Position numbers and translations under genes: made by a program. A stretch of DNA of 64,000 bases, taken from Arthrobacter sp. ATA002 (lineage in GTDB: Bacteria > Actinomycetota > Actinomycetes > Actinomycetales > Micrococcaceae). The stretch is from the NCBI RefSeq assembly GCF_026898095.1, contig NZ_CP114015.1, forward strand, positions 186,001-250,000, given 5' to 3'. A model generated the notes under the pieces. The model was given only the letters and a program-made list of their open reading frames with translations. It ran no database searches and was not told the origin of the DNA. Position 1 is the stretch's first letter, and each line of letters begins with the position of its first letter. Of this stretch, positions 35,430 to 48,203 are shown one piece after another.

Positions 35430-35517
35430 CCCTCCCGGCATGATCTTCTGCACACACCGGCTGCGATCCGGGAAAATTGCCGGGCACCGGATAGGCTATA
35501 TGAACTGATGCCTATGT

Positions 35518-36851
35518 TTGGAAAGTGAGCATGTCCAGGTGAGTGCGCGCCGTGAATCCGCTGCAAAACGGATTCCACCCTTTGCAGCGCTGGGGTCTGC
35601 CCTCTCGGCACAGTTCTCCAGGATTCAACCCCAAATGTTTGCCAGTAATCAAAATGCGCCGGCTGTTGCATCCGCAGAGGCCGAGGCCCGAGCCGAGGAA
35701 ATCGCGAGCGTGGTTTCGGATCCTCCATCGTCGCAGGAAGTTCGGCCGTATTCCGCTCCGCCAGCGCCTGTAACGCAGGATGTGGTTCCCCAGGCTTCGC
35801 TCCCTGAACCGGCACCAGCGCCTGAACCCTTGGAACCTGTTTCACGTGAAACATTAGACAGCGTTGGCACCCTGCAAACGGCAGCTGATTCGGCTGCTGG
35901 CCCCGAGGCTATTGAAGGTGGTGGAACTGGCTCGGTGGCTATGCCGTCGAAGTCGGTGGACGTTATGGATTTGATGGACGAAAGCACCCCCTCGCCCGGG
36001 AACTTGCGCACGAGAACCGCCGCCGCGAGAAACTCCGGGGCAGAGTTCTGCCGCGTCCCGCTGAAACGCGGATCATGACGGTCAGCAACCAGAAGGGTGG
36101 TGTCGGAAAGACGACCACCACGGTCAATCTGGCTGCTGCCCTTGCCAGCGCCGGGCTGAACGTGCTGGTGATCGACATTGACCCGCAGGGGAATGCTTCC
36201 ACCGCGCTTGGAATTGAGCACCACGCCGAGGTGGAAAGCATCTACGACGTGCTTATCGACGACCTTCCCTTGGGCAACGTGGTGGCCCAGTGCCCCGATA
36301 TCTCTAATTTGATCTGTGCTCCGGCCACGATCCACTTGGCTGGGGCTGAAATCGAGCTGGTATCCCTGGTAGCCAGGGAACAGCGGCTCCGCCGTGCGAT
36401 TGACACTTATGCCGCGGAACGGGAACGCAGAGGCGAAGAACGCCTGGACTACATATTCATCGACTGCCCTCCCAGCCTTGGGCTGCTGACCGTTAATGCG
36501 TTCGTCGCCGCTAAAGAAGTCCTGATCCCAATCCAGTGCGAGTACTACGCACTGGAGGGTCTAAGCCAGCTGTTGAAGAACATCGAGATGATCCAGAAGC
36601 ACTTGAATGCGGACTTGGTTGTTTCAACGATTCTGCTGACCATGTACGACGGCCGAACGAACCTAGCTGCGCAGGTTGCCGCGGAGGTCCGGGAGCATTT
36701 TCCGGAGCAGGTCCTTGGAGCGGTGGTCCCGCGGTCCGTGCGCATTTCCGAGGCGCCAAGCTATCAGCAAACGGTCATGACCTACGACCCGTCCTCCAGC
36801 GGTGCGCTTTCGTACTTGGAAGCCGCCGCGGAAATAGCGCAACGCGGATAG
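35518..36851 (+). CDS. parA: ParA chromosome-partitioning ATPase (frameshifted in the N-terminal extension)
   Basis: The C-terminal 265 residues are a complete ParA: NQKGGVGKTTTTVNLAAALA (deviant Walker A), VLVIDIDPQGNASTALG and FIDCPPSLGLLTVNAFVAA. An Ala/Pro/Glu-rich extension of about 180 residues precedes it, containing VSRET encoded by a parS site at 35838-35853. One C added at 35987-35991 joins the two frames as DESTPLARELAHENRRREK and continues to RIMTVSNQKGG. The start is uncertain: TTG 35518 or GTG 35539. ParA moves ParB-parS complexes apart after replication. parB follows 100 bases later. Confidence 0.9.
35838..35853. promoter_or_regulatory. parS site 1 (perfect), inside parA
   Basis: TGTTTCACGTGAAACA, the full 16-bp parS palindrome. 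In the parA frame it reads V-S-R-E-T. Confidence 0.93.
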
Positions 36852-36951: not shown

Positions 36952-38348
36952 ATGACCGAGAAGCGTCGTGGTTTGGGAAGAGGCCTGGGGGCGTTGATCC
37001 CCAGTAGCGCAGATACTGAGGACGCGTCGCCGGTGACTCCGGCGCCAGCACGTGCCGGCCGCCCCGTGGATGTCTTTTTCCCGTCCGCAAACGATGAAGT
37101 AACGCCCTCCCGGCCGGTTGCCGGCGGACGCCGCAGTTCAGGAATCAATAAGGACGCGCTTCGGGGTCCGGCACCTTCTGCGGGGGGTACTTCGTCAGCG
37201 AAGAGCCAGCGGAAGACCGGGGGCCGAATCTTGACGCGAGGAATTCAGACGTTGAGAATTCATCTGTATGTGATGCCACTGGCACCGCCGACGCCACCGA
37301 TGCCGGTGCCGGTGCCGGTGCCCTGAGTGTCCAGCCAGGGCAGCACAGCGGTGCTGCCGGCCCGGCGGCTGAGGACGGCCTCGAAGTGGACGGCCAGAAT
37401 GCTGCAGAAGCCCTTGCGGCCCCCACATCGCGGGTTAGGAAGAAGACTGCGGTGGCAGGAACCGGAAGTGCATCCGCTTCGAATGGGGTCTCAACCGATG
37501 AGGCTGTTTCACGTGAAACACTGGTCCAGGTTCCTGGTGCCACGTTCGCAGAGCTGCCGGTTGACTCTATTCATCCAAACCGAAAGCAGCCCAGGTCCGT
37601 CTTCGACGAAGATGACATGGCCGAGCTGGTCCACTCCATTCGGGAAATCGGAGTTCTGCAGCCGATTGTCGTCCGACCCTCGCCCGAGAACGACCCCGAG
37701 CACCCCTATGAGCTTGTCATGGGCGAGCGGCGCTGGCGGGCAAGCCGTGAGGCCGGTCTAGAGGCAGTACCTGCGATCATCCGCTCAACGCAGGATGTCG
37801 ATCTGCTGCGCGATGCTCTGTTGGAGAACCTGCACCGCAGCCAGCTGAACCCGCTCGAAGAAGCTGCAGCGTACCAACAGCTTCTAGACGATTTTGAATG
37901 CTCCCACGAAGAGCTTGCCGACAGAATTGGTCGGTCCCGACCCCAGGTAACCAACACGCTGCGGTTGATGAAGTTGCCGCCGCTGGTTCAACGCCGACTT
38001 GCGGCCGGGATTTTGTCCGCGGGTCACTCGCGTGCCCTCCTTGGGCTGGGCGACGCCGCGGAGATGGAGAAACTGGCACAGCGTATCGTCGCGGAGGGAT
38101 TGTCGGTAAGGGCAACCGAAGAGATTGTTTCTTTGAGTGACGGCCTCCGTCGCCCCCCGAAAGAGACGAAGCCGAAGGTGGGTGCCAGGCATGAACGGCT
38201 GGACTACCTTGCCACTTCTCTATCGGACCGGTTGGATACCAACGTGAAGATCACCCTCGGCGCCCGCAAGGGGAAAGTCAGCATCGAGTTCGCCAGTGTT
38301 GACGACTTGAACCGAATTATGGGAGTGCTCGCGCCGCCGGCCAGCTGA
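36952..38348 (+). CDS. parB: ParB chromosome-partitioning protein (frameshifted in the N-terminal linker)
   Basis: 465 residues after restoring one G at the run 37182-37187. The N-terminus ([19 protein letters not shown]) is the short ParA-activating helix. A long Ala/Gly linker with VSRET (parS site 2) follows. The CTP-binding core has [16 protein letters not shown] and [20 protein letters not shown], then the helix-turn-helix [20 protein letters not shown] and the dimerisation domain to the end. ParB loads at parS and spreads as a CTP-dependent clamp. It is the last gene of the conserved block; parS-rich DNA follows. Confidence 0.93.
37505..37520. promoter_or_regulatory. parS site 2 (perfect), inside parB
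   Basis: TGTTTCACGTGAAACA; reads V-S-R-E-T in the parB frame. Confidence 0.93.
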
Positions 38349-38450
38349 CTACTGCATGTAGGGCCGGCGTTGTCTGGATCACATTGTTACCGGTCTGCCT
38401 GCGGGAACGAATCTGCAAACGCTTGGCTTGTAGTTTCTATCGTCTTTGGA

Positions 38451-38492
38451 CAGTACGCGTGGGTGTTTCACGTGAAACACCCACGCGTACTG
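38451..38492. repeat. 42-bp perfect palindrome centred on parS site 3
   Basis: Bases 38451-38471 and 38472-38492 are exact reverse complements with no loop. The centre is parS site 3. It lies 103 bases beyond the parB stop and is followed by CTTTTC, so on the RNA it could also act as a terminator of parB. Confidence 0.9.
38464..38479. promoter_or_regulatory. parS site 3 (perfect)
   Basis: TGTTTCACGTGAAACA at the centre of the 42-bp palindrome. Confidence 0.95.
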
Positions 38493-38762
38493 CTTTTCAA
38501 TGGCTACTTAATACCGAGTCCTTGACCCGGTCGCCGTGGGCCAGTCCCTCAGCCACCTACATATGTCGTCTTTCGACCGGATCCTCGCACCACGTGAGCC
38601 CTTAGGAGTTGTTTGGCGTGAAGAACAGCTGATCTTGTGGGACGTCCAACCCTTAATACGCCAGCGGTGGCATGCACCTCGGTGAGTGTTCACCTGTCAT
38701 CTGCAAGGTCGTGCGAACCTCGCATACAGCCGCTGGAACTGTTCGGGCCTGGAGAGTTCTGG

Positions 38763-38778
38763 TGTTTCCCGTGAAACA
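38763..38778. promoter_or_regulatory. parS-like site 4 (one mismatch)
   Basis: TGTTTCCCGTGAAACA; the mismatch is A to C within the central CACGTG, so binding may be weak. Confidence 0.6.
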
Positions 38779-39059
38779 CGTGATCTCACGCAAAGTGGAA
38801 TACAGGCGGATTTGCCTGATCTATCAGTTCCTTAGCCCGTATCGTTAACCTCCGCCTATCACCGATTTCGGCCACGGTCGACAGGTTGTCCGTGCGGAGG
38901 CAGGGTCGGATACCAGTCCAGCTGATGAGCCGGGGTTGGTATGCGGGATCGGTGCGAATGTGAGCTCACGGGAACGGCTGTTTGCAGGTACGTGCCTCCT
39001 GCTCCCGGACATCGTCGCCATTGAGCATGTCAGGCGCCGCATTGGCGCTTGAAGTGCCA

Positions 39060-39075
39060 TGTTTCACGTGGAACC
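39060..39075. promoter_or_regulatory. parS-like site 5 (two mismatches)
   Basis: TGTTTCACGTGGAACC: the left half is perfect, the right half carries two changes. Possibly a decaying site. Confidence 0.45.
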
Positions 39076-39335
39076 TCATCATGTTAGGCCAGGGCGAAGC
39101 ACCTCGGATCTAATTCACTAGGATGTAATGCGCTAGGGCAGCTGGCGGATGAAGCCGCATTGCCTCGGAGAGGAGCGACGCCTTACCCTGGACGCCGTTC
39201 AGCCCCAGCCTTTGATCTAGTTGGCCGCGGGCCTGGTTCGGTTGATGGTCCTGCCTGTACACCTCACCCTGACCGTCGGCCGTGCTGCGACTGTGCTGCT
39301 GTTGCTTGGCCACTTCCATGCCGGCACCACCGTGG

Positions 39336-39351
39336 TGTTTCACGTGAAACG
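39336..39351. promoter_or_regulatory. parS site 6 (one outer mismatch)
   Basis: TGTTTCACGTGAAACG; only the last base differs and the 14-bp core is perfect. Confidence 0.85.
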
Positions 39352-39463
39352 CGGCGGGAGCCCTACTCTCAGTTTGCGACAGACGTAGGCGCCCGAGCGA
39401 ACATGTGTGGAAGCGAGTTCGGCGCCGCAGGACTACGCGGCGACTACCGGAGGGATGATATGG

Positions 39464-39519
39464 GAGATCACCCAAGAGAGATCAGCCAAGAGAGATCACC
39501 CAAGAGAGATCACCCAAGG
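39464..39519. repeat. 14-bp tandem repeat, four copies
   Basis: Four head-to-tail copies of GAGATCACCCAAGA; copy 2 has one change (G for C) and copy 4 ends in G. It lies between parS sites 6 and 7, and copy number may vary between strains. Confidence 0.85.
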
Positions 39520-39552
39520 CCGGAGGCGCGACGGGGTGGCTACCTTGGCGTC

Positions 39553-39568
39553 TGTTTCACGTGAAACA
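39553..39568. promoter_or_regulatory. parS site 7 (perfect)
   Basis: TGTTTCACGTGAAACA, 34 bases after the tandem repeat. Confidence 0.93.
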
Positions 39569-40013
39569 GAGAACTGACTTGTGCGCCGCGCACTGACGTT
39601 CACCGGGGGCCCGGCTACCGTCGTTAGCGGTTATGTGCGCCCCATCGTGCCTGCATTGCTCCAGCAGTTGCTTTCGCGCAGCACATCGCCACCCTTTGTA
39701 GGACAGATCCGACCCGCTACGGTGGCGCGCCTAGGACCATATGTCTCATCGTGTTGATCCCGGATCGCAGATCCTCAAAATTCCTCAACAAGCAGGAACT
39801 CAGCAATTCCCTACGCGATGACAAGCAGTCCTCGTCCCTCCCGTACACCGCAGGGCATCATGTCTGTGGAACGGGACCGCAAGGTTTATCGGGGCACGCA
39901 TCAGCGTGGTCTCGACCCAAAGCCTCCGCACCACTTCTCATACGTTCGTGCCGGCGCCGACTGACCGGGCTCATCGCACGCGGTGATCAGGGATGTGACT
40001 TCAGGCGGGCTGC

Positions 40014-40029
40014 TGTTTCACGTGAAACA
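40014..40029. promoter_or_regulatory. parS site 8 (perfect)
   Basis: TGTTTCACGTGAAACA, 32 bases (start to start) from site 9. Confidence 0.93.
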
Positions 40030-40045
40030 GCGTTGTCGACTCGTC

Positions 40046-40061
40046 CGTTTCACGTGAAACA
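40046..40061. promoter_or_regulatory. parS site 9 (one outer mismatch)
   Basis: CGTTTCACGTGAAACA; only the first base differs. It is the last clear parS of the array. Confidence 0.85.
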
Positions 40062-40189
40062 AGGAGATGAGACCTGGATTCTCCAGGGAAACACGACCCC
40101 CTTCATTCGGCCTCGTGCTCCTTCCGCAAGTCTCCGATTAGGACGCCAAGACCACCGGAAAACCCGGCTACGACCGTTCTACGGTCACA

Positions 40190-40880
40190 AGTAGACGCTC
40201 CCTCCCTGCTGTTGTTTGTATCGGAACGGTAATGCTCAGCTAGTCCCAGGAGCCCTGAATCAGCTGCTGCGGCGTGATCGGAGACATCCGCGAGGAACTT
40301 ATTCAGCAATGGACGGGCCGTAACTGGTCTTGTTAAATGTCGAGAACGCCTCCGTGGTGCTGAACAGTTCAACGCGGAGTAGCTGGCGTTCAACCTGAGA
40401 GTTCTGTACCTGGCTCCCGAAAAGGGTCTGGATATGATCCCATTCCCCTCACAGCGGAGGAAATTGGGCGCCGGGAGGCGGTGGAGGTGCATAGGGTTTC
40501 ATGGCTGACATATGCGCCCGATGAACCCTTCAGGAGTTCAGTTAATCAGCCAGGTTCTGCCGCCGGGGCGACAAACCCTGAACAGCTCATCGGCCCTCTC
40601 CTGATGATGAGGAGCGATCACTCCGACACGGGAGAAAACGATGTTGAAGGATGCATCGGGGAAGGGGAGGGCTGCGAAGTTCGCCACTACCACTGGAGGC
40701 TGGCGGCCCGGGCATCCGCAAGACGCTTACCCTCATCGATCAGCTCCAGCATCAGATCGTATGCGGCCACCTCCGCCCCGGTGTCAACGGGCGGTACCGC
40801 AGCGTTGCCGGTTCCTGCCACGACATCCAACACGTGATCCCGGCTGCATACGCGGCAGTCCTTTACGAGTGGGGGCCAAG
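40190..40880 (-). pseudogene. Decayed class I SAM-dependent methyltransferase
   Basis: Read on the minus strand in shifting frames, this stretch gives HVLDVVAGTGNAAVPPVDTG (SAM-binding motif I), LMLELIDEGKRLADARA, ANFAALPFPDASFNIVFSRV, HHQERADELFRVCRPGG, TPEGFIGR, MKPYAPPPPPGAQFPPL and FSTTEAFSTFNKTSYGPS. This is the order of UbiE-like methyltransferases. The frame changes at least twice. Stop codons stand where Trp is expected (SLQW followed by TAG, LIN followed by TGA, PPL followed by TGA). The first 30-40 residues are missing and no start is seen. Unlike the single shifts elsewhere, this is real decay. Ends are approximate. Confidence 0.8.
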
Positions 40881-40923
40881 GACGGGAATCATCTTCATTG
40901 GCTACGGAAGTATAGTTCCCCAG

Positions 40924-40970
40924 CGCCTACCGGACTCTTGCTGTCGAGCCTCGCTGAGCAGCCGGTAGGC
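40924..40970 (-). terminator. Inverted repeat downstream of the GH18-like gene
   Basis: GCCTACCGG (40924-40932) and CCGGTAGGC (40962-40970) separated by 29 bases, starting 12 bases after the stop of the minus-strand polysaccharide operon. The loop is long and there is no T tract, so this is a weak terminator candidate. Confidence 0.35.
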
Positions 40971-40981
40971 TCAGGTCGGCA

Positions 40982-42162
40982 TCAGAAGCGAGGGGTGGGG
41001 GTCACGGTGATGCCCTCGACCGCCGCACCGGCCCTGGCATTGGCCAAAAGCCATGTGCGTGCCTCGCCATGTCCCGAGAGCACGAAGCCGCCTTCGGGGA
41101 CGCGGGTTCCGGTCGTAAATTCACCGACCTGGCGGTCGTTGATCAGACTGACCTTGCCGCCCGTCACGGTCACCTCGCAGCCGATCGGGTTGGTGGACGT
41201 GGTTGGCACCCTGTCTGTGTAGGCCACCAGGGCATTGAGTTCGAGAGCGATGTCGATGCCTGACAGCGGATAGGAGGCCGAGCCGATCTTCACCACGGGC
41301 CCGGGAGGCTGAGCCAGCGCGGGCGGCAGGGCCGAGGGCATCGGCTGCTCGGGAATGACGTTGCCCAGGACGAGCGGGGCCAACTGCTTGGCAAAGGCCC
41401 ACCCCCGGTCGGAATCGGTCTTGTGCTGCCACAGGAATGCCCCCCGGATCGTTGGGAACTCCTTCTCGATCGCCCGCCAGGCAGTGCGGATCTGATCGAT
41501 CGAGGAGTAGTTCTCCATGTTTTCCATGCCGAAGCCCACGACGATCTTGCTCGCGTCCCCGCCGGCCACGTTCAGCACCCAGTCGCGCGTGGTGGCAATG
41601 ATGTATTCCGGGTCGGCGAGCCCCGTGCCGTCGTAGAACTGTGGCCCGGCGTAGGTCATGAGGTCCCTCGACAGGGCCTCGCGGATCATCGCCTTGTCCT
41701 CTGCCTTCCAAGGGGCAGGCGGGGACGTGATGCCGAAGTCCTGGCCGAACCGGCGCTTCAGCTCCGTGAACATCCACAGATACTCGGCCGTGTTCGGCGT
41801 GGCCTCGGCCTCGAAGGTATTGAAGTCGACCCCGTCGATCACGGGGCTGGTCAGGGTGCCACCGAGCTCCGCGTTGATGCGCACGACGCTGTCCACGAAG
41901 CGCTGGCTCACCGACCGTGAGGAGAAGTCAATTCCCTGGCCCGCGCCCCCGTGGAGAGCACGACACGCTGACCCCGGGCACGGACGGTCCTGATGTCGGC
42001 GTCGATGTCGTTCATGCCCCACCCGATCCCCCCTGCGTCACCCGACCGGCCGGCGGCGAACAGGTAGAGCACGTTGTACGACTGCGGGACCTGTGTGAGT
42101 CGGATGTCAGCGTTCCAGCGCGTCCAGTAGACGGCGTTGACCTTGCTGGGCAGCTTGGTCAC
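40982..42162 (-). CDS. GH18-like (chitinase-fold) protein with C-terminal beta domain (frameshifted)
   Basis: About 393 residues from GTG 42162, with AAGGA upstream. The N-terminal 280 residues follow the GH18 barrel: VNAVYWTRWN, a strand ending in QRVVLSTGGAGQG (after repairing the C run 41946-41950), IDGVDFNTFEAEA in place of DGxDxDxE, DLMTYAGPQFYDG and GAFLWQHKTDSD. The catalytic Glu is offset from the usual spacing, so activity is uncertain. The last 100 residues (CEVTVTGGKVSLINDRQVGE, RVPEGGFVLSGHGEARTWLL) resemble the N-terminal part of phosphodiester glycosidases (NAGPA/DUF2233). No signal peptide is seen. It is the last gene of the polysaccharide cluster, 45 bases after the deacetylase. 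Confidence 0.72.
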
Positions 42163-42207
42163 AAGAGATTCCTTCGCGTTCCGGTTCGGACGGGCACCGG
42201 GATCTCT

Positions 42208-43035
42208 TCAGCCGTACATCTCGAGCACGCCACCCGTAGTATCCTCGCGCATCTCCGTGGTGGCACACAGGCTCCTCTCGTTCATCGCATCCACGATGGG
42301 TTGGAGTGCGTCGACCGAGTTGAGCGTCGCCTGTCCTTGGCCGTCATGCATCGTGATGATCGAGTCGGCCCGCATCCTTTGGACCGTGGCATCGATGATC
42401 TCCTGGGTGGTCGCGCCCTCGTAGTCTTGGGTATCCACGATGTTGTCCTCTTCGTGGTACCCCCAGGGCATCACGAGACGCAGGTCGAGCTCTTGTGCCA
42501 CCTCGTCCACCTGCTTGTTGATCGCACCGTAGGGCGGGCGGTAGAGCGTCGGGCGAGGGGCGCCAGCAGCGATCAGGGCCTCGTTCGTCCGCTCCAACTC
42601 ACTACGCACCCACGCGGGACTCCAGGTCTGCTTGGTGCCGTCGGGCAATTCTCCGGTCATCATGTTGGCGTGGTCCCAGGAGTGGTTGCCGATGACATGG
42701 CCCTCGGCAAGGGCACGGGTAACAGTGTGCTCGCGCCCCTTGATTCTTTGACCGTTCCAGAAGAAGACGGCGTCGATGCGGAAGCCATCGAGCGCGTCGA
42801 GCACCCTCTCGGTGTTCTCGCGCGGGCCGTCATCGAAGGTGAAGGTGACGTGGCCGCCCGAGCAGTCGTTGTCCAGCGGGCGCTCCGTGATCGGATCGCT
42901 CCGGGTTGTGGCGGTGGTGGCGGCAAACGCTGAGCCGGAGTGATCCTGGATGACCACCTGGAACGTCCCGGCGAGGGCGACGGCAGCAGCCGCCGAAGCG
43001 GCTACTGCAGTTATCCCGCGGCGTGTCAGAGTCAC
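42208..43035 (-). CDS. Secreted polysaccharide deacetylase (NodB domain)
   Basis: 275 residues from GTG 43035, which overlaps the stop of the upstream GT39-like gene as GTGA. A signal or anchor helix (TAVAASAAAAVALAGTF) precedes the NodB domain from about residue 60. Motifs: VTFTFDDGPREN (catalytic and metal Asp), GHVIGNHSWDHANM (metal His pair), LYRPPYGAINKQ, and ITMHDGQ with the catalytic His. The usual Trp of motif 4 is missing in IVDTQDYEG. It likely removes N-acetyl groups from an exported amino-sugar polymer, as IcaB/PgaB does. Confidence 0.88.
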   Translation of the reverse strand: MTLTRRGITAVAASAAAAVALAGTFQVVIQDHSGSAFAATTATTRSDPITERPLDNDCSGGHVTFTFDDGPRENTERVLDALDGFRIDAVFFWNGQRIKGREHTVTRALAEGHVIGNHSWDHANMMTGELPDGTKQTWSPAWVRSELERTNEALIAAGAPRPTLYRPPYGAINKQVDEVAQELDLRLVMPWGYHEEDNIVDTQDYEGATTQEIIDATVQRMRADSIITMHDGQGQATLNSVDALQPIVDAMNERSLCATTEMREDTTGGVLEMYG

Positions 43036-44528
43036 TCTGCTCCCTTCTTGGTGAAGACGAGCCACATGTCAGCGTCTGAATGAGCACCGGCAGGCATGGT
43101 GGCGGTGAGCTCGTAGTATGCGCTGTCCCGGAGAGCTTGAAGCAGTACGGCCTGTCCTGCGTCCTGATCGGGTTCCCCGGTGCTGGCAGAGCGAAGGATG
43201 ACGGACTGGAAGCTTTGATTCTCCACAGCCACCCTGATGGCTCCCTCGCCCTGGGGATAGAGGGAGAAGGTCGTCTCCCAGGTGATCTCGGGGCGATCGC
43301 GCAGATGGTACTTCAGGGAGTCCGACGCCGAGGAGATGTAGACACCCGGCCTGGCATCGTCCTCGATAACATCCACGACGGGCTGGACGCTGACCCAGGA
43401 GTTGTACATGGTATCCGAGCGGGAGACCCCGAACAGCAGCGTCGTAGATAGCAGCACCACCACCGGGAGCAGCTTCCATGTGCGCCTGGACAGCTTCGCC
43501 AGTGCGTAGCCGGCCAGGGGTGCCAGGAAGAGCGCGGCGTACGCCAGGTGCTTGTCGAAGGAGAAACCCTCGCCCAGGACCAGTTGCGCGGCGGGTAGCG
43601 CCAGGCCGCCGCCGAACAGCACCAGCGCCACCAGTGCGTGCCGCGGCCCTCGGCGGGCCAGCAGCAGTCCTCCCACCAGTGCGATGAGGATGAGGATGCC
43701 GATGTCGAGCACCAGCCATGCCACCAACTCGTCCGTCGAGTGTGGGCTGAACACGCTTCGATCGGTCAGGGATGTGACACCCGCGCCGATCTGATCCGAC
43801 CAGGCGAGCCAGGCGGCACCAGGGACGGCCACGGCGATGACGCCCGCGAGCGCTGCGCGCCAGCGTGGCGAGGCCAAGAACACCACGACGAGCACGACCG
43901 GGATGAAGATCGCGCCCGAGTACTTCATGACAGGGACCAGGCCGAGGATGATTCCGGTGGCCACGGCTGACATCCAGCCCGTCTGGACGCCTGTCCAGAC
44001 GGCGGCAGCGAGCATGGCGATGACCAGGGCGTCGAAGGTGGCCAGGGCACCCGCGAACACCACGGGACCCGTCAGCGCGAAGACGGTAGCCGCGAGTATG
44101 CCCTCACTCCGGTACCCCAGGTAGGCCAGCGTCCGGTAGACGAGGATGGTCGCCGCCAGCACGCAGAGCAGGCTGAAGCCCCGGACCAGCAGGAGCCCTC
44201 CGATGGTGTCCAGCACGGCAGCGAACACGGGGTAGACGAACGGCACGCCGGGAAACGAGTCGCCGTACGTCTCGACGCCGTCGCCCGTCAACCAGTGCTT
44301 GAGGTAGTCGTGCCCTGCGTTGATGTAGAGCGCTTCATCGATGAAGGCGGTGTTGGACAGCCGCAGGCTGAGTACGGACAACAGTGCCAGCAGCACGATC
44401 AGCGGGGTGCGGCCCACCCAGCGTCGTGTGCTCTCGACCTGCAGCTTGGGCGGCAGGGCCTGACTGACGGCCTCGTTCCACGTCGGCCGATGGTACCCGT
44501 CGGCCGGACGGTTGAGGGTGTCTGTCAT
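43032..44528 (-). CDS. GT39/ArnT-like polytopic glycosyltransferase
   Basis: 498 residues with about 10-12 hydrophobic helices. The first outer loop contains NTAFIDEALYINAGHDYLKH, where the Asp-Glu pair matches the catalytic acidic residues of GT-C enzymes such as ArnT and PMT. The last 110 residues form an outside domain. Such enzymes use a polyprenyl-phosphate sugar. Within this cluster it could add a sugar to, or help export, the polymer. ATGA overlap with the 55-aa gene and GTGA overlap with the deacetylase indicate one operon. Confidence 0.8.
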   Translation of the reverse strand: MTDTLNRPADGYHRPTWNEAVSQALPPKLQVESTRRWVGRTPLIVLLALLSVLSLRLSNTAFIDEALYINAGHDYLKHWLTGDGVETYGDSFPGVPFVYPVFAAVLDTIGGLLLVRGFSLLCVLAATILVYRTLAYLGYRSEGILAATVFALTGPVVFAGALATFDALVIAMLAAAVWTGVQTGWMSAVATGIILGLVPVMKYSGAIFIPVVLVVVFLASPRWRAALAGVIAVAVPGAAWLAWSDQIGAGVTSLTDRSVFSPHSTDELVAWLVLDIGILILIALVGGLLLARRGPRHALVALVLFGGGLALPAAQLVLGEGFSFDKHLAYAALFLAPLAGYALAKLSRRTWKLLPVVVLLSTTLLFGVSRSDTMYNSWVSVQPVVDVIEDDARPGVYISSASDSLKYHLRDRPEITWETTFSLYPQGEGAIRVAVENQSFQSVILRSASTGEPDQDAGQAVLLQALRDSAYYELTATMPAGAHSDADMWLVFTKKGAE

Positions 44529-44692
44529 GAGCGCTTCCTCCTCGGAGGCAGAGTGGCATCGTGTTCGTGCTTGGGCAGGATGCGGCGCACGGCGATGCCG
44601 AGGACCGCCAGTGTGAGAACCGTCAGCGCGGCCACGCCGGCCATGAAGCCGTTGTGGGTGACCTCCTCGAGGAGGCCCAGGAATGTGTCCAT
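44525..44692 (-). CDS. 55-residue membrane protein, possible synthase partner
   Basis: MDTFLGLLEEVTHNGFMAGV, then one membrane helix (AALTVLTLAVLGIAV) and a basic tail RRILPKHEH...RRKRS. ATG 44692 overlaps the GT2 stop (ATGA), and its stop overlaps the GT39-like start (ATGA). By position and size it could be the small partner of a processive synthase, like IcaD or PgaD, but there is no sequence motif to prove it. Confidence 0.7.
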   Translation of the reverse strand: MDTFLGLLEEVTHNGFMAGVAALTVLTLAVLGIAVRRILPKHEHDATLPPRRKRS

Positions 44693-45936
44693 CAGGTCAA
44701 CCACTCTTTCTCGCCGCCGCGCAGTGCAAGGCGAAGTGCCTTCCAGTACGCGATCGACTGGTAGGCCTCGTAGATCCACAGCGGGATGATGAGAGTGGCG
44801 TAGATTCGCGCCCTCCACCCTGCGTCCCAGGTGGCCACCAACTGGTCGAGCATGAACACCGGAATGATGAGCAGCCAGAACGGATGGAAAGCCACCTCCT
44901 CGAAGATCAGGGCATAGCTCCAGATCATCAGCATCAGCACCGGGATGATGGTGCGGAAGTAGGTCCATGCCTGTACCGCCCACGCCTTGCGGGTGTGTTC
45001 CACGAATCCATAGGTGAACAGGGTCTCCAGCGTCCCCCGCTGCCACCGCAGTCGTTGGATTCTCCAATCGCGCCACGTCGGCATCACGTCGGTGTCGACG
45101 ATGCAATCTGCGGCGCACCGCGGGTCGTAGCCCACACGCTTCAGTGCCACGGTCAGCTCGTAATCCTCCGTGAGGGAGGACTCGTCATACACCAGTCCCT
45201 TCACTCCGGGAATGACGCTGCTGCCGCGCATCTGGGCCACCTTGCGCAGTGCTTCCACTGTGAAGATGGTGGCTGCGCCCGACAGCACGTGGATGCGCCC
45301 AGCACGGCGGTGCACCGAGCGCAGGCCCTGGGTGTATTCGATCTTCTGCAGCAGGGCCACGCGCGACGGGTGGTCGGCGGCCAGGTAGGAGCCGCTGATC
45401 CCACCCCGTAGCGGCCAGTGCTCGAAGTAGGCCATGCCGGCAGCGACGAAGTCGCGATTGAGACGGCTGTCCGCATCCATCATCAGCACGACATCATGAG
45501 GCTGGAGACCAGGGAGGACCATGGCGAGCCCCTGATTGAGCGCCCCCGCCTTCTTGGCGGTGTTGTCCCAGGTTTCCAGAACTTCCACCCCCATGGCTTT
45601 GGCGATGTCCACGGTGCCGTCGGTGCAGTTGTCTGCCGCCACGAGGATCTGGTCGGGGGCCTGAGTCTGGCGACGCAGGCTGTCGATCGTCTGTGCGATC
45701 CCGATCTCCTCGTTGTGGGCAGGGATGATCGCAATCACTCGTACAGGCGACCGGGGCTCCTCGACTGCCTGCGCGAGCGGCTTCCGGCGGAGGTCGTTGC
45801 TCAGTTTCACGACGGACCCCCGTGCTGGACTTCCGCGCAACGGCGACAGGTTCCCCTGGACAGCTCGTGCTCCGTCTGGGACTGCTCCTGCGGCTCGGGG
45901 GACGACAGGGCAGGGGGCGCCTCTGGTGGCAGTCAT
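44692..45936 (-). CDS. Processive family-2 glycosyltransferase (PgaC/IcaA-like polysaccharide synthase)
   Basis: 414 residues from ATG 45936, with AGGAGGAG upstream. The GT2 catalytic set is complete: VIAIIPAHNEEIGIAQTIDS, VAADNCTDGT, DVVLMMDADSRLN (DxD), DESSLTEDYELTVAL (TED) and IQRLRWQRGTLETLF (QxxRW). C-terminal membrane helices (TIIPVLMLMIWSYALIFEEV, then VFMLDQLVATW and IYATLIIPLWIYEAY) form the export channel. QxxRW marks processive enzymes: PNAG, hyaluronan, cellulose or chitin synthases. The deacetylase two genes on favours an N-acetylglucosamine polymer. The frame stays open up to 46221, but that part is unlike any GT. Confidence 0.87.
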   Translation of the reverse strand: MTATRGAPCPVVPRAAGAVPDGARAVQGNLSPLRGSPARGSVVKLSNDLRRKPLAQAVEEPRSPVRVIAIIPAHNEEIGIAQTIDSLRRQTQAPDQILVAADNCTDGTVDIAKAMGVEVLETWDNTAKKAGALNQGLAMVLPGLQPHDVVLMMDADSRLNRDFVAAGMAYFEHWPLRGGISGSYLAADHPSRVALLQKIEYTQGLRSVHRRAGRIHVLSGAATIFTVEALRKVAQMRGSSVIPGVKGLVYDESSLTEDYELTVALKRVGYDPRCAADCIVDTDVMPTWRDWRIQRLRWQRGTLETLFTYGFVEHTRKAWAVQAWTYFRTIIPVLMLMIWSYALIFEEVAFHPFWLLIIPVFMLDQLVATWDAGWRARIYATLIIPLWIYEAYQSIAYWKALRLALRGGEKEWLT

Positions 45937-46612
45937 GACTGCTGCTCCTCCTGAAGTGGAGCCAGAAGCACGCGGCTGGTGGTGTGGTGGATGTGATGGA
46001 TGATCAGCAGCGTTGGAAGCGCCATAGCTTTTGGCTCGTGCTCCTGCGGTGACAGCCCGTCGGTCGGTTCTGAACCGTTGACGAAGTTCGATGATAACGG
46101 CTACATCGAAGTCAAAATCGGCTTCTGCAATCGGTGCGGCTTGCGGACCGTCGCCGTGAACGGTCCCGGTGATTTCCCCGGCGGCTTCCAGCAGATGGAA
46201 ACGCAATTCTTGCAGAGTCACGGCCGCACCCCCCTTGTCTGGTCAAAGAAAACTGGTCATCCTCCGTGTGGATGATCCGCACGAAGGCGTCGACCGGGGC
46301 CCTGCCGTGGGCAGGGCATATGCCGCTGGTTAACGCAGTGGCGGGAATTCGAACCTGCGGCCCGGAGCACTGCAGGTGATTGCTGCTCTGAATGCTCCGC
46401 AGCCTCTGGCTAGACTTTGGTGTCCGAATCGACCAGTTCAGGCTAGGAAAACGGTCGCCGCCCGGCACGCGTAACAGCTACTGGTTCCACTCCCGGTAAC
46501 TCTCGGCAGGACACCTAGCGCCGGCGTCAGCGGCTTCTAAAGACAAGTAGTCCGGTGCCGTGACCGGATTCCGGATTGGTGTTCGGGGGAACAAATCACG
46601 CGCACGTGAAAC
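45937..46612. other. Region between the polysaccharide operon and cwlM
   Basis: About 680 bases. 45937-46221 is open on the minus strand in frame with the GT2 gene (TLQELRFHLLEAAGEITGTV) and could encode a small protein or an N-terminal extension, but no start site supports it. 46340-46358 is similar to a tRNA T arm (minus strand GCAGGTTCGAATTCCCGCC), perhaps a remnant or attachment site. The promoter of the polysaccharide operon must lie here. Nothing else can be assigned. Confidence 0.4.
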
Positions 46613-46650
46613 AGCGGCGGCACCTCCCGTGGGAGATGCCGCCGCCGCTG
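46613..46650 (-). terminator. Terminator hairpin after cwlM
   Basis: A long GC stem (AGCGGCGGCA...CTCCC with GGGAG...TGCCGCCGCCGCT, with small mismatches) starting 20 bases after the cwlM stop. There is no clear T tract. Confidence 0.55.
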
Positions 46651-46670
46651 CGTGTTCGGTGGGGCCTGGC

Positions 46671-47867
46671 CTAGAGTCCGGCTACGCGCCGTTCCTCCGG
46701 CTCCTCAGCGGGGTTGAACCGGATCACGTCGTCTAGGGCCAGTGTGCCGGTGGGCTGGTCTTCTTCCTCGAGCAGGTAGAGCCGCTGGATGCCGATCACG
46801 ATGGCATCGGCCACCGTCTGGCGGAAAACGGGATCGGCGAGCCGTTCCGCATCGCCGCGGTTACTCAGGTACCCCAGGTCCAAGCCGACGGAGGGAATGC
46901 CGGACAGCTTCAGGGTGTCCCAGGTCCGTCCGTGGACGCCCAGGCTGTCCATTCCCGTGCGTGCTCCCAGCTCCTTCATCAGGAGGATGGCGGCCCGGTG
47001 GCCAATGGGGGAACGCGGCTCACCGGTTCCGGGCAGGCCCCAGTAGAAGGCGGCGATGCCGGAGGCGGCTTCCTGGTTCAGCCAGTCGCAGTGAAGGTCC
47101 AGGCTGAGGCTGGGCACCCGTTCGCCGTCGGGCTCGATCCCGGTGGCTGCGGACGTGCGGGTGACGACCCGGGCACCGAATTCCCGAAGGATGCGTTCCA
47201 CCCGCCGGCAGATGTCCGCGGCGACCAGCGCCTCGGTCAGCGGCTCGGAGGTCAGCCGTTCGACGGCGTGGGGGGAGGCCAGCTCCGACGTGCCGCCGCT
47301 GAGCGCGATCAGCCGGCCGCGCAGGGCGGTGGTGGAGCGGTCCAGCCGCTCGTAGTCGCGCAGGGCAAACGCCTGGCTTGGCGTAATGGCACGGTTGACC
47401 CGAGCCATGGCCCGCATGGTGGCTTCGTCACAGACACCGCTGCCGGGGATGCCCAGGTTCTGCTGGAGCTCGGCGACGGCGTAGCGGGTGCGGACGTTGA
47501 ACTCACCGTCAATGTGGCCGTAGTAGAACCCGAGGTGCGAAAGGTGGCGCTGGAGTTCGGCGACATCGTCGCCGCGGGCCGGCGGTTCACCTTCGACGAA
47601 AGCCAGGGTGCGGTCTCCGAACCGGAACTGTGCGTCGGCCAGGGCCCGCAGGGTGTCGGGGCCTGCGACGCCGTCGACAATCAGGCCGCGGCTCTGCTGG
47701 AAGGAGCGGACGGCGGCGTCGACGTGGTCGTCGAAAAGGGTGGGATTGGTGACGGAGTCCGGAGCCAGGTAGGACATGGAGATGCCGGCACGCAGCAACG
47801 CTTCACGAAGCGAGACTACGGGCCGGCCGGCGTCCGTTCTCCGCAGGGTTTCTCCTGCCGAGTGCAT
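46671..47867 (-). CDS. cwlM: CwlM-like amidase-fold protein with two peptidoglycan-binding domains
   Basis: 398 residues. Two PG_binding_1 domains (about 15-80 and 95-165; VDAAVRSFQQSRGLIVDGVA, VRTRYAVAELQQNLGIPGSG) precede an Amidase_3 domain (about 185-380). The first zinc motif, normally DPGHGG, is LIALSGGTSEL, and the second ligand Glu is not evident, although DLHCDW keeps a His. It is therefore probably non-catalytic. In mycobacteria the CwlM homologue, next to trxB-trxA, is phosphorylated by PknB and activates MurA; the same gene order here supports that role. It starts 10 bases after trxA. Confidence 0.88.
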   Translation of the reverse strand: MHSAGETLRRTDAGRPVVSLREALLRAGISMSYLAPDSVTNPTLFDDHVDAAVRSFQQSRGLIVDGVAGPDTLRALADAQFRFGDRTLAFVEGEPPARGDDVAELQRHLSHLGFYYGHIDGEFNVRTRYAVAELQQNLGIPGSGVCDEATMRAMARVNRAITPSQAFALRDYERLDRSTTALRGRLIALSGGTSELASPHAVERLTSEPLTEALVAADICRRVERILREFGARVVTRTSAATGIEPDGERVPSLSLDLHCDWLNQEAASGIAAFYWGLPGTGEPRSPIGHRAAILLMKELGARTGMDSLGVHGRTWDTLKLSGIPSVGLDLGYLSNRGDAERLADPVFRQTVADAIVIGIQRLYLLEEEDQPTGTLALDDVIRFNPAEEPEERRVAGL

Positions 47868-47877
47868 GGTCTTGTCT

Positions 47878-48203
47878 TTACTTCAGGAACGCCGCGAATT
47901 CCTGCTCCAGGACCTGCTTCGGCTTCGCGCCGATGGATGTGGCAGCCACCTCGCCGCCCTGGAAAACGTAAACGGCGGGGATGGACGTGATCCCGTACTT
48001 GGCTGCGATGGCCGGGTTGTCATCCACATTTACCTTCACGACGTCCACCTTGTCGGCATACTGTGCCGCGATGTCGTCGAGGATGGGGAGAGCATACGGC
48101 ACGGGCCGCACCATTCAGCCCAAAAATCGACAATGACCGGCTTGTCTGCCGTGAGGACATCCGCTCCAAAGGAAGCGTCGGTTACATCTTTCGCGTTGCT
48201 CAT
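47878..48203 (-). CDS. trxA: Thioredoxin (frameshifted)
   Basis: 108 residues when one C is restored at 48084-48087. [20 protein letters not shown], then [18 protein letters not shown] with the active-site CGPC, joined to [19 protein letters not shown] and [15 protein letters not shown] with the cis-Pro. The break falls just after the active site, so an uncorrected gene would make no functional protein. It is reduced by TrxB, encoded 27 bases upstream. Confidence 0.93.

Follow-up and report, generated by a model that had tools for sequence, protein, structure and literature searches.

The Operon and Its Surroundings

The locus considered in this study lies in a stretch of 64,000 nucleotides (the window) from Arthrobacter sp. 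ATA002, positions 186,001 to 250,000 of NZ_CP114015.1. Its genome carries the handle G000, and positions are those of the window unless a locus (L) is named. The minus strand bears the five genes that a preliminary description of this DNA had listed, all co-directional, encoding in order a GT2 glycosyltransferase, a 55-residue protein, a GT39-like membrane protein, a NodB-type deacetylase, and a GH18-like protein (Table 1). The same description had the first four genes joined by four-base overlaps. This is true of the junctions between the small protein and the GT39-like protein (ATGA) and between the latter and NodB (GTGA), but the GT2 gene and its small neighbor overlap by a single base (TGATG). 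NodB is separated from the GH18-like gene by 45 bases. An alternative, longer GT2 frame beginning at GTG 46221 passes through the remnant of a dehydrogenase gene.

Table 1. Features of the operon, its flanks, and related loci. Positions are in window coordinates unless a locus is named.
Feature	Position	Strand	Remarks
GT2 synthase	44692..45936	-	414 residues from ATG 45936; GGAGGAG upstream
One-helix microprotein, 55 residues	44525..44692	-	Tail RRILPK, no L[AP]xTG; divergent member of the GT2-partner family
GT39/PMT_2-like multi-pass membrane protein	43032..44528	-	
NodB-type CE4 deacetylase, hydrophobic N-terminus	42208..43035	-	Start GTG 43035
GH18-like gene	40982..42162	-	Start GTG 42162; frameshifted near 41,940-41,950 in the assembly
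Exchanged block	40948..45989	.	97.7% identical to G257, same chromosomal place
Inverted repeat of 14 nucleotides directly after the operon	40920..40975	.	Possible terminator, lacking a T run
Remnant of the 5' end of a sugar-nucleotide dehydrogenase gene	46093..46221	-	50% identity over 44 residues, E 1.1e-5, to L176
Broken methyltransferase gene after the operon end, overlapping it slightly	40305..40995	-	Three pieces, E 3e-42 and 1e-47
NodB-GH18 spacer	window 42211-42162; L052 11187-11233; L013 11570-11616		
Repeats of the ~90-residue domain in the galactose-oxidase-like protein	L015 6283-6921; L016 11195-12298		

Recurrence, Selection and Recent Exchange

The preliminary description had suggested seeking the same gene order in other actinobacteria, allowing that the five genes might never be found together elsewhere. 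They are found together, in the same order, in a second genome of the genus (G257, locus L052) and in Arthrobacter sp. RIT-PI-e (locus L013), and the GT39-like and GH18-like genes, which had been noted as additions to the cluster, are real members of it. The ratio of nonsynonymous to synonymous substitution rates (dN/dS) between the window and RIT-PI-e is 0.11 for the GT2 gene, 0.29 for NodB, 0.34 for the small gene, 0.38 for the GT39-like gene, and 0.33 and 0.35 for the two pieces of the GH18-like gene. The genes of the operon are under purifying selection.

The flanks nearest the block that the window shares with G257 are 86.4% and 82.7% identical, as against 97.7% within the block. Synonymous divergence (dS) from G257 is 0.03-0.08 in the GT2, GT39-like, and NodB genes and the GH18 pieces and zero in the 55-codon gene, while in the flanks it is 0.69 (part of trxA), 0.74 (amidase), 1.64 (part of parA), and 1.96 (part of parB). 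Judged by this pattern of divergence, the operon has recently been exchanged in place between the lineage of the window and that of G257. The operon of RIT-PI-e stands at another place, since parA, trxA, and the amidase gene were not found in its 17-kb locus, which holds instead a cellulose-synthase-like GT2 gene and a weak GH26-like match. A further gene near that operon, labeled GH16-like by eye, was given no family by Pfam, and the label was dropped.

More distant relatives have related but different sets. Two loci from two other genera (L015 and L016) encode a GT2, a microprotein with the motif LAATG, NodB, a GT39-like protein, a galactose-oxidase-like protein, and a GH18 protein, and that of Embleya (L085) encodes a GT2, a microprotein, and NodB but nothing that matches the GT39-like or GH18 proteins.

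The region between parB and the amidase gene was compared in 7 of the 27 other genomes of the genus. Over window positions 38348-46671 and in L175-L182, this interval is a variable polysaccharide locus. Two genomes (G172, locus L180; G146, locus L176) have there a full set of dehydrogenase, epimerase, deacetylase, lipoprotein-like, and GT2 genes (in L180, Pfam supports four of the five, and the lipoprotein-like protein has no hit), three loci (L175, L177, and L178) have partial or broken versions of the set, and two (L179 and L181) have none of it at E 1e-5. The window keeps the dehydrogenase remnant and the broken methyltransferase gene of the displaced locus (Table 1), and G257 keeps pieces of its GT2, regulator-like, and methyltransferase genes. 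From these remnants it seems that one polysaccharide locus was replaced by another in place, and the operon may be expressed from the old upstream region.

The GT2 Synthase

The preliminary description had assigned the first gene a processive type of GT2, and the motifs are legible: D, DxD, TED, and QxxRW (as QRLRW). Strong hydrophobic segments occur, by simple hydropathy, only near the C-terminus (about residues 326-363). The protein matches Glyco_trans_2_3 of Pfam over its cut-off (70.1 bits), and its best NCBIfam model is PgaC_IcaA (TIGR03937), with a score of 59.7 bits where the cut-off is 422.3.

A tree of 66 rows, 55 of them from the GT2 group of the window, was made with IQ-TREE, with BcsA of Escherichia coli represented by residues 251-720 only. 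The 55 sequences, that of the window included, form one group (support 97/90), albeit beside long reference branches, and within it those of the window, G257, RIT-PI-e, L015, and L016 form a subgroup (99/94). Apart from this group, E. coli PgaC is joined with a MatB-type GT2 of Kocuria (99/94), and the cellulose-synthase-like GT2s also fall outside. IQ-TREE warned that the very long branches of several references might join falsely, and the branching among the references is unsure. One such branch, placed elsewhere in the tree, belongs to a row that I take to be NodC-like, an unannotated stretch of pSymA.

These results point to a separate actinobacterial clade distinct from the family of synthases of poly-beta-1,6-N-acetylglucosamine (PNAG), and membership in that family, with TIGR03937 far under its cut-off and PgaC in a different group of the tree, was rejected. 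The likeness that the preliminary description had drawn to ica and pga systems remains fair as a functional analogy to IcaA, IcaD, and IcaB and fails as a statement of family. By that analogy the operon could still be a true PNAG system, an ica or pga locus in function with an unusual set of accessory genes. The best NCBIfam model, the combination of a GT2 with a small partner and a deacetylase, and the production of PNAG by the actinobacterial MatAB proteins (PMC5972031, in the part available) agree with this, but I consider it improbable in light of the model score, the grouping of PgaC with the MatB-type GT2, a small protein without a Pfam or NCBIfam family, and a GH18-like barrel that matches chitinases.

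The One-Helix Microprotein and Its Possible Link to Sortases

To gather the GT2 group, a profile of five GT2 sequences was used at E <= 1e-70, matching 44 of 394 genomes of the class. Counting 49 places from these genomes together with the window, G257, RIT-PI-e, L015, L016, and Embleya L085, there are 55 distinct places. A microprotein was defined as an open reading frame of 35-90 residues that has a strong helix and a tail of the form R/K..P and lies in the interval -30 to +150 around the GT2 stop. By this rule a microprotein follows the GT2 stop in 39 of the 55 places. The rest comprise six helix-bearing frames that fail the tail rule (judged by eye), one masked place, and nine with none. 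The controls were the stops of other open reading frames of at least 300 codons, taken from all frames of these loci and often not real genes. The rule holds for 7 of 343 of these, and at least three of the seven are microproteins of the GT2 group over again, met from a different frame. GT2 and microprotein are therefore linked genes.

The microprotein of the window scores 18.0 bits against a profile built without its lineage, whereas 200 shuffled versions reach at most 5.6. It matches no family of Pfam or NCBIfam at E 0.1, those of IcaD and PgaD included, a test weakened by the shortness of the sequence. A sorting-like motif, L[APTSV]x[TS]G, is present in 23 of the 39 members of the family and absent from those of the window, G257, and RIT-PI-e.

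A sortase gene adjoins the GT2-microprotein pair in 9 of 54 loci of the group, 13 of which are short (about 3.3-4.1 kb), and in a tenth locus it lies about 7 kb away. The queries were taken from L119 and L127, so those two match by construction. Pfam confirms eight of the nine adjacent sortases, the ninth (L121) resting on the query match, and all nine loci come from three families (f24, f34, and f26) and so are not independent. None of 31 other loci of 12-20 kb has a sortase match, nor do the operon loci of G257 and RIT-PI-e, and none was noticed around the operon of the window, where no dedicated search was made. L124 (7328-10134) and L127 (5405-8343) each hold, one next to the other, a GT2 gene, a gene for a microprotein with LA[AM]TG, a sortase gene, and a GH26 gene of convergent orientation. 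LAXTG is the motif used by actinobacterial sortases of class E (PMC5148588, in part). Among the papers listed in a search of the open-licence literature in PubMed Central (PMC), none describes a link between GT2, microprotein, and sortase.

The most interesting lead to come from the operon is, in my view, the GT2-microprotein pair: many relatives have a sorting-like motif, and some have a sortase gene as neighbor. One may speculate, and I do so tentatively, that the pair marks an undescribed actinobacterial class of glycan synthases in which a membrane partner of 50-60 residues serves as a sortase substrate, the sortase thereby attaching the polymer, or an anchor for it, to the cell wall. The operon of the window would then be a derived, released form that lost the sorting motif and gained the deacetylase and the GT39-like and GH18-like enzymes.

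The GT39-Like Transferase

The third protein is predicted to be an extracytoplasmic transferase using a polyprenyl-phosphate sugar. The window copy scores 21.3 bits for PMT_2, under the cut-off of 26.1, while three relatives pass it (27.2 in RIT-PI-e, 30.2 in L015, and 42.4 in L060), and the motif N-T-A-F-x-D-E-A-L is invariant in five relatives. A profile of the family matches 8 of 395 genomes in a sample of the bacterial family, that of the window included, and among the 29 genomes of the genus, all drawn from this sample, only G000 and G257. A plasmid search for the protein gave no match.

The preliminary description had viewed this enzyme as an oddity in the place of IcaC. That view does not survive a comparison of its relatives, which are near a GT2 gene, mostly of another type, in all 20 of the loci fetched (L051-L070; further GT39-like places lie in G466, G601, G715, and contig C3 of G591). 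In 18 of these the GT2 is of the cellulose-synthase-like kind, though the match is only 26-31% identical in four (L061, L065, L069, and L070), and the remaining two are the five-gene operon itself. The converse search of the 27 loci L119-L138 and L175-L181 with GT39-like queries found nothing. The cellulose-synthase-like GT2 query, run on these loci, hit none of L175-L181 and, in L119-L138, no gene other than the GT2 of the locus itself. Four other neighborhoods of GT2 or GtrA genes in the genome of the window (L073-L076) do not repeat the operon.

The GT39-like loci hold other glycan genes. GH26 was confirmed in L053, L054, and L060, GtrA occurs in L054 and L016 and as a fusion in L056, and a galactose-oxidase-like gene occurs in L015, L016, L054, and L055. 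In L054 (5780-6631) a protein of 283 residues with no Pfam hit is encoded between the galactose-oxidase-like gene and the GT2 gene. PF09118 has no match in the genomes G000 and G257. Among the papers listed in a search of the same literature, none describes links among GT39, GtrA, and GlxA. GtrA is of the flippase type known from the decoration of lipid-linked glycans (PMC13390465, in part). Polyprenol-phosphate mannose, the substrate of Pmt in most Actinobacteria (PMC5882110, in part), is a candidate donor for the GT39-like enzyme.

The Deacetylase and the GH18-Like Protein

The fourth protein is a secreted-type NodB deacetylase, as had been proposed: it passes the Polysacc_deac_1 cut-off of 23.1 bits at 115.4 and has a hydrophobic N-terminus. 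TFDDGP, HSWDH, RPPYG, and HDG can be read in it, a set that I take to be the NodB/CE4 signature of a deacetylase. It scores highest with the models PdaB (85.3 bits) and PgdA (85.1 bits), without reaching the cut-off of either, and lower with the NodB model TIGR04243 (74.1 bits).

The scores to PdaB and PgdA could mean that the cluster modifies an existing polymer of the wall, teichoic acid or peptidoglycan, and makes no new exopolymer, and systems of GtrA and GT-C type do decorate Gram-positive teichoic acids (PMC13390465, in part). There is little to recommend this for a GT2 with all of the processive motifs and with a microprotein as partner, however, and the company kept by relatives of the GT39-like protein (cellulose-synthase-like GT2s, GH26 in three loci, and galactose-oxidase-like proteins) fits new polymers.

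The preliminary description was right that the GH18-like protein lacks a signal peptide, which is true in G257 and RIT-PI-e as well, and wrong in its start at 42022. The frame from that position is the second piece of the gene, the N-terminal piece lying in another frame from 42162. An enzyme beginning at 42022 was accordingly rejected, its start being upstream and its frame broken in the assembly. The homologue is a single frame of 393 codons in G257, and in RIT-PI-e it can likewise be read in one frame free of stops. All within some 13 kb, the genes parA (35509-36848), parB (36952-38345), and trxA (47881-48203) are also split, each over two frames, when compared with relatives, suggesting residual assembly indels in the genome. 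Because of these splits and a genome completeness of 94.24%, as compared to 98-100% in the relatives listed, an assembly indel appears likelier than true decay as the source of the frameshift in the GH18-like gene.

Decay of the gene throughout the operon lineage, with the window copy already dead, would account for that frameshift, for the absence from RIT-PI-e of ATG, GTG, or TTG before the conserved N-terminus (the first start codon is 30 codons inside), for the lack of a signal peptide as compared to the signal-like N-termini of the GH18 proteins of L015 and L016, and for a dN/dS of 0.91, from few changes, in the larger piece between window and G257. Given the open frame in G257 and a dN/dS of 0.33-0.37 against RIT-PI-e, as well as the split genes and low completeness, I judge it unlikely.

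The fold is that of a chitinase-type TIM barrel. A model of the RIT-PI-e copy (mean predicted local distance difference test score (pLDDT) 59.4, with residues of about 50-240 mostly at 55-88) matches the chitinase 3n13 of Bacillus cereus (Foldseek E 9.4e-10), and the family profile matches chitinase A 3ebv (E 7.2e-17). Pfam GH18 scores of 28.8 and 25.6 bits fall just under the cut-off of 29.6, and the two pieces from the window, taken alone, have no Pfam hit. Enzymes of GH18 carry the catalytic motif DGxDxDxE (DxxDxDxE). All five sequences seen here have instead DGxDxN[TN][FY]E, the window reading DGVDFNTFE, and the protein may therefore bind more than it cuts.

Two further observations concern this gene. 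Its C-terminal domain of about 90 residues, possibly carbohydrate-binding, recurs two and three times inside the galactose-oxidase-like protein (Table 1). In the window, G257, and RIT-PI-e, the NodB and GH18-like genes are in the same frame, separated by one stop and 15 codons. Read-through from one to the other, which the lack of a standard start codon in RIT-PI-e might suggest, is a weak idea and not favored: in the window and G257 a GTG follows AAGGAA, and the two differences between their spacers both change residues in the NodB-GH18 frame.

NodB and a ChiA-type barrel together point to a chain of N-acetylated hexosamine. This could be a beta-1,4 polymer like chitin or chitosan, a long-chain version of what NodC and NodB produce. 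Besides TIGR04243 and the ChiA-type GH18, a search of solved structures with the GT2 profile brought up hyaluronan synthase (3.8e-4) and chitin synthase (9.4e-4), both behind 6p61. The NodC model, however, gives the GT2 17.9 bits, lower than several other GT2 models, the NodC-like reference is elsewhere in the tree on its very long branch, and the GH18 motif is altered. I regard a chitin-like product as possible, with a somewhat greater claim than PNAG but well short of being expected.

Proposed Function

With moderate confidence, and from gene content and homology, I favor a recently exchanged operon for a synthase-dependent amino-sugar exopolymer that would be deacetylated by NodB and decorated by the GT39-like enzyme. 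The GT2, with the microprotein as its membrane partner, would polymerize a sugar linked to uridine diphosphate (UDP), most likely UDP-N-acetylglucosamine or another N-acetylhexosamine, and the two would feed the chain through the membrane. Secreted NodB would strip N-acetyl groups from it, the GT39-like enzyme would probably add a side sugar at the outer face from a polyprenyl-phosphate donor, and the GH18-like protein would bind or trim the chain. The biochemical steps and the identity of the sugar are what I infer, as distinct from the arrangement and history of the genes.

Several results weigh against this proposal. The similarity of the GT39-like protein of the window to PMT_2 is weak (21.3 bits). 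As to a GT-C fold, its AlphaFold2 model, from two sequences only, has a mean pLDDT of 39, and the family profile finds three matches in PDB (E 0.05-0.46), none plausible. The operon has neither GtrA nor a gene for a polyprenyl-sugar synthase, two GtrA genes lying elsewhere in the genome. Hydrolysis by the GH18-like protein is doubtful, with its altered motif and no signal peptide. Within the GT2 group, L119-L138 (20 loci) gave no match to the GT39-like or GH18 proteins and a single NodB match, weak and distant, at the edge of a locus; the accessory genes therefore do not accompany this GT2 in general. The best structural match of the GT2 profile, 6p61, is an unspecified glycosyltransferase, and I know of no product for any member of the group.

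What the operon brings together is a GT2 with a one-helix microprotein, a GT39-like transferase whose relatives lie near other GT2 types, and a site between parB and the amidase gene where one polysaccharide locus seems to have given way to another. Should the microprotein prove to function as a subunit of the synthase or as a substrate of sortase, many actinobacterial GT2 genes without a known product would gain a testable partner and a possible route by which a glycan is fixed to the wall.

Comparison with Known Systems

The GH18-like protein resembles ChiA-type chitinases (3ebv, 4tx8, and 3n13) in profile and model matches but differs from them in motif, export, and its extra C-terminal domain. 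The CslA-GlxA system of Streptomyces (PMC11022532, in part) has a counterpart in the galactose-oxidase-like genes of the related L015 and L016 clusters, whereas the GT2 of the window is not of the cellulose-synthase-like type. GtrA-dependent, three-component glycan decoration, as described in the parts available of PMC13390465 and PMC11127046, is alike in setting a multi-pass GT39-like protein beside glycan genes, and GtrA or a GtrA fusion is present in three related loci. The operon itself differs in having no GtrA or lipid-sugar synthase and in its pairing with a processive-type GT2.

No paper describing PNAG in Micrococcaceae was found in a search of the open-licence PMC literature. MatAB of Streptomyces offers an actinobacterial GT2 with CE4 and a matrix polymer, the two enzymes being fused in one protein, MatB (PMC5972031, in part), whereas in the window they are separate genes. 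The Kocuria GT2 of MatB type groups with PgaC and not with that of the window, and a search of the 29 genomes of the genus with the Kocuria protein, made without a positive control, gave no match at E 1e-60. With icaADBC and pgaABCD the operon shares a GT2 best matched by PgaC_IcaA, a small membrane partner, and a deacetylase, and differs from them in a below-cut-off GT2 of a separate group, a 55-residue protein outside the Pfam and NCBIfam families, and the presence of GT39-like and GH18-like genes rather than IcaC or PgaA.

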